DNA of 64,000 nt from contig NZ_JAUFQI010000001.1 of assembly GCF_030409715.1 (NCBI RefSeq), forward strand, positions 1,171,001 through 1,235,000, written 5' to 3'. Positions 54,043 to 56,465 of this stretch are shown here, one piece after another; position 1 is the stretch's first letter; the number at the start of each line of letters is the position of its first letter. The stretch is from Reinekea marina (lineage in GTDB: Bacteria > Pseudomonadota > Gammaproteobacteria > Pseudomonadales > Natronospirillaceae). The position numbers were made by a program, and so were the translations under genes. The notes under the pieces are model-generated. The model was given only the letters and a program-made list of their open reading frames with translations, did no database searches and had not been told where the DNA came from.

Positions 54043-54393
54043 ATGGCTGAGTTTTTTCTGGTTTTTGTCGTTACGTTTTTGGTCGTGGGTGGTGTCGCCC
54101 TAGCCATGGCATTCGGCAAAAAACCAGTTTATCAGCCAGAAATCGAAGACCTTCAAGCCACGTTAACGCGCTTGCTTGAAGGTCAACTCACGCCAAACGA
54201 ATGGAACTTTTTCATCGACATGCCCATTCGTCACAACGAAGAACTCGATAACATCCGCCTACAATGCCAAAGCATTAACGAACTCTACGCACTAAGAGTC
54301 AGAAACAACCAAATTCGCTTCCGCGAAGAAGGCGAAATCAAACTCCGCTTCATTTTATCCAAACTAGAACAAGCCGGCAGCCGCAGCTTTTAA
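54043..54393 (+). CDS. small membrane-anchored hypothetical protein
   Basis: The 116-residue protein begins with one hydrophobic helix (FFLVFVVTFLVVGGVALAMAF). A cytoplasmic helical tail follows, with charged heptad-like spacing (PEIEDLQATLTRLLEG, HNEELDNIRLQCQSINELYALR). No known family was recognised. It begins five bases after purL and may be cotranscribed. The tail could form a coiled coil. Confidence 0.6.
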   Translation: MAEFFLVFVVTFLVVGGVALAMAFGKKPVYQPEIEDLQATLTRLLEGQLTPNEWNFFIDMPIRHNEELDNIRLQCQSINELYALRVRNNQIRFREEGEIKLRFILSKLEQAGSRSF

Positions 54394-54453
54394 TAAAAGC
54401 AAGATCGCTCAAAGCAACACAAAGGCGCGATGGCTTTAAGTGTTTAGACCCTG

Positions 54454-54483
54454 CTTGTAGCTTGAAGCTATTAACTTGCAGCT
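54454..54483. repeat. 30-bp direct repeat, copy A
   Basis: A 30-base sequence here recurs at 56317-56346 with 28 of 30 matches. Both copies include CTTGAAGCTATTAACTTGCA and lie on either side of the interrupted repeat and IS. It shows that the region is built of repeated non-coding modules. Confidence 0.8.
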
Positions 54484-54490
54484 TAATTCC

Positions 54491-54535
54491 CGCTTCGGTG
54501 GCGCGTTCCACTTCCGCGGGTCGCTGCTCGCGCAT
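54491..54535. repeat. dispersed repeat copy 2, left fragment
   Basis: This matches the first ~45 bases of the intact copy at 21970-22296 (CGCTT-GG-GGCG, CCACTTCCGC, TCGCTGC-CGCGCAT). The match stops at CGCGCAT, where the insertion element begins. Confidence 0.75.
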
Positions 54536-54540
54536 ATATG

Positions 54541-54824
54541 GACCCACCCCGTTTGCAAGACATATTTGATCATCATGTGAGAGAAAATCATTGCTCTCAT
54601 ATATCCGGCCTTTGACTGAAGGTGTTTTTGACCTCCTGGCCCCGATGGTTATCTGCGCTCAACCCCCTCATCATCCATACGGCCTCGAAGGCCAATGCGC
54701 GTGTAAGGGTTCGGATGAGCCGGTCTGACCTATCTCACCATCCGATCAATCTGTCTTTTGCAACTGAAGTGAAAGGTAATTACTTTCTCTTATTATATTG
54801 CCAGCCTTTGGCTGGCGTTTGCTT
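54541..54824 (-). ncRNA. candidate bridge RNA/seekRNA of the IS element
   Basis: IS1111-group elements encode a guide RNA downstream of the transposase. This non-coding region, read on the minus strand, can fold accordingly. One stem-loop has an outer stem AACCC/GGGTT (54711-54707 with 54665-54661) and an apical GGCC-UUCGA-GGCC (54693-54681). The 5' side of its internal loop is CGCGCAT (54701-54695) and the 3' side ATGGATG (54678-54672). These equal the left target top strand and right target bottom strand. Another stem uses TCGGATG/CATCCGA (54711-54717, 54739-54745). The transcript ends are unknown. Confidence 0.55.
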
Positions 54825-55841
54825 CTATACCGCTAAGCGGTAACTCTCTTCTCGGGCCATAACTACCCAAGCAATACGTGCTAGTTTATTAGCTACAGCG
54901 ACACAGGCTTTATTATGCCCGCGGCGCGCCAACAGTGCTTGTGCCCAACAACTGAAGCGATCGATCTTGCCGGCCGAATGCATGAGTACTGCGCGAGCAC
55001 CGTGTATCAATAGAGTGCGTAAGTAGCCGTTACCCCGTTTACTGATCCCAAGTAAACCTGCCTTGCCGCCACTGGCGTGTTGCCCAGGTACGAGGCCAAT
55101 CCACGCAGAAAAATGACGACCATTCACAAAGTTTTTGCCATCGCCTGCAGCCGCATACAATGCACTGGCGGTTATTGCGCCGATGCCCAACACGCCTTCT
55201 AGGCGTTTACAGGTCTCGTTCTCTTTGTTCACTGCTTTTATCCTTTGCTCGCAGATGTGCAGTCGTTGATCCAGTTCGTACAGCTCGTCGAGCAAGTCGG
55301 CAAAGAGCTCTCGTGCCATAACCGTTAAACCATTTTCTGCATCTTCTAATACTTCCGGCAATGTTCGGCGTACAGAGGCAATCCCTTGGTTAATCACAAT
55401 CCCATACTCCGCCAGTAACCCTCGTACCTGATTGACCAATCCGGTACGGGCCTTTTTAAGACGTTCACGGCGGCAGTGATAATTCTGTACATCTTGTTGC
55501 TCAATACTCTTGATAGGCACAAAGCGCATCGTTGGCCGCTGCGCGGCTTCAGCGATTGCCTCAGCATCGTTGTAGTCGTTTTTATTACCTTTTAAAAACG
55601 GCTTGACGTACTGCGGCGCGATAAGTTTGACCTGATGACCTTGCGCAATAAACGCCCACGCCCAGTAGTTGGCGCCGCCGCAGGCTTCCATCACAATTAA
55701 ACACGGATCTAAGTTTGCCATGTAAGCCAAAACCTCTTTTCGACGCAGCTGCTTTTTCTTAACCAGCTTGCCCATCCGGTTGGTAGCAAACAGATGAAAA
55801 ACAGACTTTGCAATATCTAACCCAATCGTTGTAATCTTCAT
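54825..55841 (-). CDS. IS110-family transposase (IS1111 group)
   Basis: From the ATG at 55841 the product has 338 residues, starting MKITTIGLDIAK. The RuvC-like DEDD domain shows D9, E52 (IVMEACGG), D89 and D92 (NKNDYNDAEA). A coiled-coil linker leads to the C-terminal Transposase_20 domain with GVLGIGAITASAL and the IS1111-typical GLVPGQHASGGK...ISKRGNGYLRTLLIHGARAV. It is a guide-RNA-dependent recombinase that excises a circle and inserts at a target. A TTG at 55880 is in frame, but GGAG nine bases before 55841 supports the ATG. The frame is intact, so the element may be active. Confidence 0.93.
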   Translation of the reverse strand: MKITTIGLDIAKSVFHLFATNRMGKLVKKKQLRRKEVLAYMANLDPCLIVMEACGGANYWAWAFIAQGHQVKLIAPQYVKPFLKGNKNDYNDAEAIAEAAQRPTMRFVPIKSIEQQDVQNYHCRRERLKKARTGLVNQVRGLLAEYGIVINQGIASVRRTLPEVLEDAENGLTVMARELFADLLDELYELDQRLHICEQRIKAVNKENETCKRLEGVLGIGAITASALYAAAGDGKNFVNGRHFSAWIGLVPGQHASGGKAGLLGISKRGNGYLRTLLIHGARAVLMHSAGKIDRFSCWAQALLARRGHNKACVAVANKLARIAWVVMAREESYRLAV

Positions 55842-55938
55842 ATCGACCCACTCCGCTTCTGTTAAATGGTTTGTGTTCAACTTCCATTTTGGCCCATTAT
55901 GAGGCCGATAGGGAAGTGGGGTGGGTCCATACCATTAT

Positions 55939-56211
55939 CCATGCGCCGCTGTACTTCGGCATCCATGCCTCAGATGCCCGCTCCTGTGAAACCCACCCCC
56001 AAAGCTAATCACCAACACCACTCCCAAGTAGGAGCGCGCGAAGCAAAGCGAAGCCGCGAAATGTGTTGACCTGACCCGCAGCCCGAAACCAAAAACCGCA
56101 CTTGATAACCCAAAAAAATTCGCCAATCATCATTGAATTTCAAAAGCGACGGCGATTTGATCTTGTCTTGCAGCTTGCAGCTTGCAGCTTGCAGCTTGCA
56201 GCTTGCAGCTT
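55939..56211. repeat. dispersed repeat copy 2, right fragment, with heptamer array
   Basis: This continues the repeat broken by the IS, from CCATGCG onward. It contains GTAGGAGCG (56028-56036) followed by CCGCGAA, which recalls Pseudomonas REP sequences. It ends in ~6.4 tandem CTTGCAG units (56167-56211). Together with 54491-54535 it gives ~318 bases, close to the intact copy. Confidence 0.75.
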
Positions 56212-56465
56212 TTCCCCCTCAACCCAAAACATCTCAAATCTAAAAAATCGTCTCTCCACTGCGTTCCGACGACTCCTACACGTTCAATTATCAGCACAAA
56301 CCCTCTTTTGACCATACTTGCGGCTTGAAGCTATTAACTTGCAGCTCAAAAAAACTGGTACGAATTGCTGACACCCAACCCCTTCTTTTTTCAAAAACAG
56401 ATCTTGTCATTACCGCTGTGCTCGGTACCCTAACAGCAACAACAATAAACAGAATTTAAGCGCCT
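56212..56465. other. intergenic region with further repeat modules
   Basis: A 33-base segment at 56248-56280 matches 59706-59738 at 29 of 33 positions. Copy B of the 30-bp direct repeat is at 56317-56346. No gene was seen. The promoter of the acetoacetyl-CoA synthetase gene should lie at the right end. Confidence 0.55.

Follow-up and report, generated by a model that had tools for sequence, protein, structure and literature searches.

The window, by which we mean the whole 64,000-nt stretch of DNA analysed (G000:C1:1171001-1235000), carries on its minus strand, at 54535-55937, an insertion sequence of 1403 bp that we call IS1. The preliminary description of this DNA had placed it in the IS1111 group, an assignment borne out by a DEDD transposase, 13-bp inverted repeats, extensions of 7 and 3 bp and a non-coding region downstream of the gene. 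The inverted repeats are subterminal and perfect, within the 11-13 bp typical of IS1111 elements: the left one, ATGGACCCACCCC, lies at 55918..55930 and the right one, GGGGTGGGTCCAT, at 54538..54550, both on the minus strand. Outside them are the left extension TAATGGT (55931-55937, minus strand) and the right extension ATA (54535-54537, minus strand), and there is no target duplication, as in IS1111 elements. The ends of IS1 (54535..55937) are fixed by an empty site of another copy, with a one-base ambiguity, and agree with the 7 bp left and 3 bp right published for IS1111 (PMC11187229; here and below, published elements are cited from excerpts of the papers concerned). In transposase orientation the target flanks are GCATGGA on the left (55938..55944, minus strand) and TGCGCG on the right (54529..54534, minus strand).

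The transposase gene occupies 54825..55841 on the minus strand and encodes 338 aa when counted from its ATG; the listed open reading frame is 351 aa long and starts at a TTG at 55880. The protein matches Pfam PF01548 (DEDD_Tnp_IS110) and PF02371 (Transposase_20), scores 348.8 bits against NCBIfam NF033542 ('IS110 family RNA-guided transposase'; cut-off 140) and carries GLVPGQHASGG; both Pfam domains, a length of roughly 330-350 aa and a GL-P----S(T)G motif characterise IS1111 transposases. The layout of the element points the same way: the non-coding region downstream of the gene, counted from the stop codon as far as the outer edge of the right inverted repeat, is 286 bp long, or 274 nt if the repeat is left out, and the downstream end of the element spans ~290 bp against ~96 bp upstream (from the ATG at 55841 to the element end). 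A long downstream region is the IS1111 arrangement, and the longer upstream region of IS110-type elements such as IS621 is not seen. Comparison by sequence found only two solved relatives of the transposase, IS621, which is the best, and ISCro4, an RNA-guided system. IS621 is likewise guided by an RNA (PMC11208160, PMC11208158).

Copies of IS1, an empty site and a palindromic repeat

IS1 is present in the genome as five identical copies (L001-L005, of which L003 is the window copy), with a 1398-bp core found at 100% identity in five places. Four of these copies lie in one orientation inside an interspersed palindromic repeat, with flanks GCATGGA|TGC(G/A)CGA in transposase orientation; the fifth, L005, lies off the repeat at a looser site, with flanks CATGGA|AGCGTT in the same orientation. 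A second genome of the same species (G009) has no transposase match at E <= 1e-60, and the site of L005 is preserved there exactly in its empty state, AACGCTTCCATG (plus strand), where the occupied site reads AACGCT|TATATGG...CCATTA|TCCATG (plus strand). This comparison shows that the L005 insertion was precise and without target duplication, to within one base, and the empty site permits crossover only at G|A or A|T. The two-base AT core in which the preliminary description let the two guide matches overlap can be read at the window site, but at L005 the full AT overlap is not the exchange interval. The L005 insertion breaks codon 2 of a 328-aa gene whose frame is open in G009 (L044 1114-2100, minus strand), and whose product is presumably membrane-transport-like, resembling an ABC-type permease. 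The window site of IS1 is also empty in G009, but the hairpin loop there differs, and therefore no pre-insertion sequence was taken from it.

The palindromic repeat lies at about 54480-54534 and 55938-56000 of the window and often forms short arrays with a spacing of ~190-355 bp. Its apical loops are variable (CATGGAT, CAGGAT, CAAGGAT and others). Since minimum-free-energy folds of two repeat units disagreed, we claim no structure for it beyond the palindromic arms. At the gathering score, Rfam gave no match for either the repeat or the guide RNA in six sources (the window and five loci), and a search of 54300-56200 at E values up to 5 returned a single miRNA match (E 3.7) that we take as chance. 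Two search patterns, each tolerating as many as 3 mismatches, gave 25 and 23 unoccupied repeats, 48 together, a count that depends on the patterns and misses more diverged repeats; a CATGGAT loop occurs in 12 of these 48, and all four repeat-borne IS1 copies sit at CATGGA|T. The hypergeometric probability of drawing four of four from 16 among 52 is 0.0067.

In G009, the place corresponding to the repeat at window 54480-56000 (L040) has a different loop, GCGCCTCCGTGCGC; loops of the repeat may be changing fast, or the arrays may be homogenised. A tandem 7-base unit, GCTTGCA, lies at about 56168-56213 of the window and is present in L010 too.

The target loop and its match to the flanks

A stem-loop that the preliminary description had read on the minus strand downstream of the transposase stop is present at 54661-54712, and we take this element (GAACCCTTACACGCGCATTGGCCTTCGAGGCCGTATGGATGATGAGGGGGTT, 54661..54712, minus strand) to be the target-binding stem-loop of a guide RNA. 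As had been noted, its side CGCGCAT equals the plus strand of the window at 54529-54535, and the rebuilt junction, CATCCAT, has its complement within the half ATGGATG. The outer AACCC/GGGUU stem described earlier stands only in part: outer stems exist, but the consensus has CCU/AGG plus an 8-pair stem and not exactly that pairing. The putative 3' target guide, TATGGA with core T, occupies 54673..54679 (minus strand) and agrees with the left flank CATGGA at five of six bases, the sixth allowing a G-U pair, and with position +1; the 5' side of the loop, 5' of this guide, lies at 54696..54702 (minus strand) and gives a fixed-position guide match. In transposase orientation the complement of the top strand (right flank) comes 5' and that of the bottom strand (left flank) 3', which is the order of IS1111 and not the reverse order of IS110, in which the bottom-strand complement is first. 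The guide order given in the preliminary description is therefore right for IS1111, but its statement that IS110 shares this order is not, the two families being opposite in this respect (Siddiquee et al., PMC11187229, as excerpted).

With the loop positions held fixed, L002, L003 and L004 each score 12/14 against their own flanks, L001 scores 11/14, and L005 scores 8/14 with a core mismatch. Over 127,920 window positions on both strands, at least 12 is reached by 4, at least 11 by 15 and at least 8 by 2052. When the loop position is left free the match becomes far less specific: a score of 12 or more is then attained by 49, and one of 11 or more by 387, of 2000 sites drawn at random from the window, flanks of other elements reach 12 in 4 of 52 cases, and 16 of 52 foreign flanks do no worse than L001's own. 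A guide match in a single copy is, taken alone, only suggestive; because of the noise in the free search, guide positions were in what follows fixed by scaffold motifs. Comparison of the loop halves with the flanks of other copies, a check proposed together with the original observation, finds good matches in four of the five copies and a partial one in L005, and does not refute the reading.

The same genome holds four copies of a second element, IS2, whose transposase is 45-46% identical to that of IS1. Its loop reads GAGCGCT-hairpin-CGTAGG[A], and three of four copies have GTAGG as left flank (L036 has GTAAG) and three of four AGCG(C/A)TC as right flank (L037 has AGTGATT). IS1 and IS2 have different predicted guides, and that of IS2 fits the target of IS2, which likewise differs from that of IS1. 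Units of the kind of repeat that IS1 enters adjoin the IS2 copies L036-L038. Among closer relatives, L020 and L108 (transposases 74% and 78% identical to that of IS1) have IS1-like ends and donor-loop bases together with other target loops, which match their own flanks at 4/6 with a core mismatch and 5/7 in L020, and at 5/6 with a core mismatch and 5/7 in L108; this is suggestive of natural retargeting and does not prove it.

At 56028-56044 of the window, beside the repeat entered by IS1, there is an unoccupied site of the kind entered by IS2, GTAGGAGCGCGCGAAGC; the two elements thus point to separate parts of a single repeat neighbourhood.

Flank tests, donor loop and RNA structure across relatives

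Two sets of relatives were assembled. Set 1 was drawn from 390 genomes belonging to the order (of which 55 had matches at E <= 1e-70), 22 belonging to the family (6 with matches at E <= 1e-60) and L020, the one locus added by a contig scan; after removal of 12 of its 83 loci for want of an inverted repeat, of L088 for a spurious repeat and of one with a cut flank, it comprised 69 elements in 53 distinct regions. Set 2 came from 369 genomes belonging to the class (of which 39 had matches at E <= 1e-60), of whose 48 loci 15 were dropped and 33 used, giving 30 distinct regions, with the locator unchanged. The locator finds the target loop by scaffold motifs and makes no use of guide positions, and the one thing searched for was where the 5' guide ends, over ~24 positions and in the same way with own and with shuffled flanks. 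Set 2 is the cleaner test because the scaffold motifs were picked after set 1 had been seen.

In set 1 the 3' guide agrees with the element's own flanks at 217 of 318 positions, compared with 90.7+-8.2 (maximum 116) over 400 shuffles of the flanks; the 5' guide does so at 315 of 371 (223.4+-5.8, maximum 242) and the core of the target loop in 42 of 53 (23.7+-2.6, maximum 32). The corresponding values for set 2 are 100 of 180 for the 3' guide (48.6+-6.3, maximum 72), 146 of 210 for the 5' guide (125.0+-4.1, maximum 137) and 15 of 30 for the core (8.6+-2.4), a value that the best of 400 shuffles also attained. Since the elements are kin and not independent, these standard deviations overstate certainty; an effect in the opposite direction is that shuffling keeps elements with a shared target in the pool. 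In 11 of the 53 regions of set 1 and 12 of the 30 of set 2 the 3' guide and core score below 4/7 at the located loop; in these cases, probably, either the loop escaped the locator or the element itself is a misfit.

The conserved part of the predicted guide RNA, with target and donor loop, spans 54582..54735 (minus strand), as aligned through the identical copy L001. Made from 27 of the 53 regions, this alignment (A1) has 19 consensus pairs, 13 of them with compensatory change, among them an 8-pair stem of columns 17-24 with 79-86; 95.5% of its cells are paired, compared with 76.1% in shuffled and at most 48.7% in slid controls. At a fixed distance downstream of the target loop stands ACCAT (54645..54649, minus strand), the complement of positions +3..+7 of the left end (ATGGT), which we read as the 5' half of a donor loop; the 3' half, TATA with core T (54599..54603, minus strand), equals the final four right-end bases together with +1. 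In set 1 the donor loop agrees with right-end bases at 187 of 212 positions (shuffled 161.7+-3.2, maximum 171), with the core in 49 of 53 (25.6+-2.7, maximum 37) and with the left end at 216 of 265 (176.6+-4.7, maximum 191). Elements whose right end is not TATA have a matching change in the RNA in 18 of 19 cases, and the match is exact in 26 of the 34 with TATA. Set 2 gives 100 of 120 for the right end (83.4+-2.8, maximum 93), 18 of 30 for the core (11.1+-2.2, maximum 17) and 104 of 150 for the left end (90.0+-3.5, maximum 101).

These results bear on three other explanations of the loop. It is very unlikely, in our judgement, that the transposase protein alone reads the palindromic repeat in the manner of site-specific recombinases and that the element's origin gave the RNA match as a by-product: the target is indeed palindromic, a form that proteins often read, and the guide RNA is a prediction, but the loops track the flanks of their own elements across 53 + 30 distinct regions, IS1 and IS2 differ in loop and target alike, and the best solved relative by sequence, IS621, is RNA-guided (PMC11208160, PMC11208158, as excerpted). 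More improbable still is a match that arose by chance or from a captured piece of flanking DNA. The free-search scores of a single element do lie near the tail of chance, but the fixed-position tests, the four copies in the repeat, IS2, set 2 and the shuffles of both sets contradict chance, and the halves match opposite strands around a hairpin, unlike any captured stretch of flank. Stem-loops after genes often end transcription, and two terminator-like sites do lie near the stop codon (54799-54817 and 54828-54842), but both have their T-run on the plus strand and are no excess over shuffles (2 compared with a mean of 1.8), on the minus strand the loop 54661-54712 is not followed by a T-run, and the loop's variable positions follow the flanks, so that a terminator, or a structure regulating the transposase, in place of a guide is hardly credible. 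The guide-RNA reading of the original observation has thus gained support from the copies, from IS2 with its different guide and target, and from flank shuffling in two sets of relatives.

Mechanism, relation to known systems and a possible handshake base

Taken together, the evidence makes it very probable that IS1 is an IS1111-group insertion sequence with a guide RNA aimed at the loop of the palindromic repeat, the RNA being, by prediction from sequence, an IS1111 seekRNA or bridge RNA. From the observed matches, copies, covariation and the one exact empty site, we infer transcription, binding, circle formation and strand exchange as follows. The DEDD transposase would use an RNA encoded downstream of its gene, whose target loop is programmed to the palindromic-repeat loop and whose donor loop would pair with the element's own joined ends in an excised circle; the circle junction would create a TATAAT promoter driving both transposase and RNA. 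A guide so aimed would explain why IS1 accumulates in the repeat, with its copies there facing the same way, and now and then enters a looser site.

The TATAAT of the circle form was recognised by eye and spans the junction, with TA from 54536-54535 and TAAT from 55937-55934; a -35-like TTGCAA (54553..54558, minus strand), also found by eye, would lie 16 bp before it in the circle. A promoter scan of 54400-56100 as it stands gave no promoter-like site on the minus strand. Promoter activity at the circle junction would fit the published circle promoter of ISEc11 (PMC11187229).

IS1 is like the IS1111 seekRNA elements ISEc11, ISPa11 and ISKpn4 (Siddiquee et al. 2024, PMC11187229) in its downstream non-coding region, subterminal inverted repeats, 7- and 3-bp extensions, lack of target duplication, GL-P----SG motif and order of the top-strand before the bottom-strand complement, and ISPa11 likewise targets a palindromic repeat; it differs from them in guide and target, and a donor loop is not described in the excerpts of that paper. 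With the bridge RNA of IS621 and IS110 (PMC11208160, PMC11208158) the predicted system has in common a target and a donor loop in one RNA, a DEDD recombinase and a promoter that, in IS1 as there, would form at the joined ends. Unlike IS1, IS110-group elements have the RNA mostly upstream of the gene and the guide order reversed (Durrant et al. 2024, Hiraizumi et al. 2024), inverted repeats of only 2-3 bp and, in IS621, a CT core (PMC11208160, PMC11208158). Durrant et al. (PMC11208160) predicted bridge RNAs in six IS110/IS1111 elements, including ISPa11, and inspected the loops by hand; IS1, by prediction, has donor-binding bases as do the IS1111 orthologues of that work, where they often lie in a multiloop, and compared with those six elements the donor match is here tested on 53 + 30 regions with shuffles.

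Neither IS1 nor a handshake signal in IS1111 was among the matches listed in a search of titles and abstract beginnings of the IS1111 and bridge-RNA literature, in which subscription journals and preprints are thinly covered. We take IS1 to be an RNA-guided IS1111 system not reported before, of an already known type in which its membership is well supported, and the newest hint to be a handshake-like base. The system offers a clean natural test of RNA-guided insertion, in that the flanks of five identical copies are known, the same genome has IS2 with another guide, and one empty site is preserved exactly.

The hint concerns position +2 in the 3' half of the donor loop, which may match the target and not the donor; we put this forward tentatively, as a possibility that is rather doubtful. 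Where target and donor differ, donor-loop +2 follows the target in 25 of 28 cases in set 1 (41 elements), in 29 of 32 in a wider selection of set 1 (45 elements) and in 10 of 11 in set 2, and its agreement with the target, 42 of 45 compared with a shuffled mean of 31.0, was equalled by none of 1000 shuffles; this evidence is thin because G dominates target +2. Among discordant elements with a base other than G, three of five fit in set 1 (L092, L100 and L103, with T), with L056 and L079 (C) following the donor, and three of four fit in set 2, L128 being the miss; the fitting ones may share ancestry. In set 1, position +3 of the donor loop shows no signal (12/41 compared with 9.8+-2.6), and neither does +2 in the 5' half (25/41 compared with 27.2+-1.5). 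In IS621 it is the guides pairing with the top strand that carry the handshake bases (Hiraizumi et al., PMC11208158, as excerpted), whereas the handshake-like base of IS1111 would lie in the guide pairing with the bottom strand. If true, IS1111 would be the mirror image of IS110, with the bottom strand exchanged first; the donor-loop and +2 signals suggest how recombination in the two groups may mirror each other, which is relevant to genome engineering with small systems.
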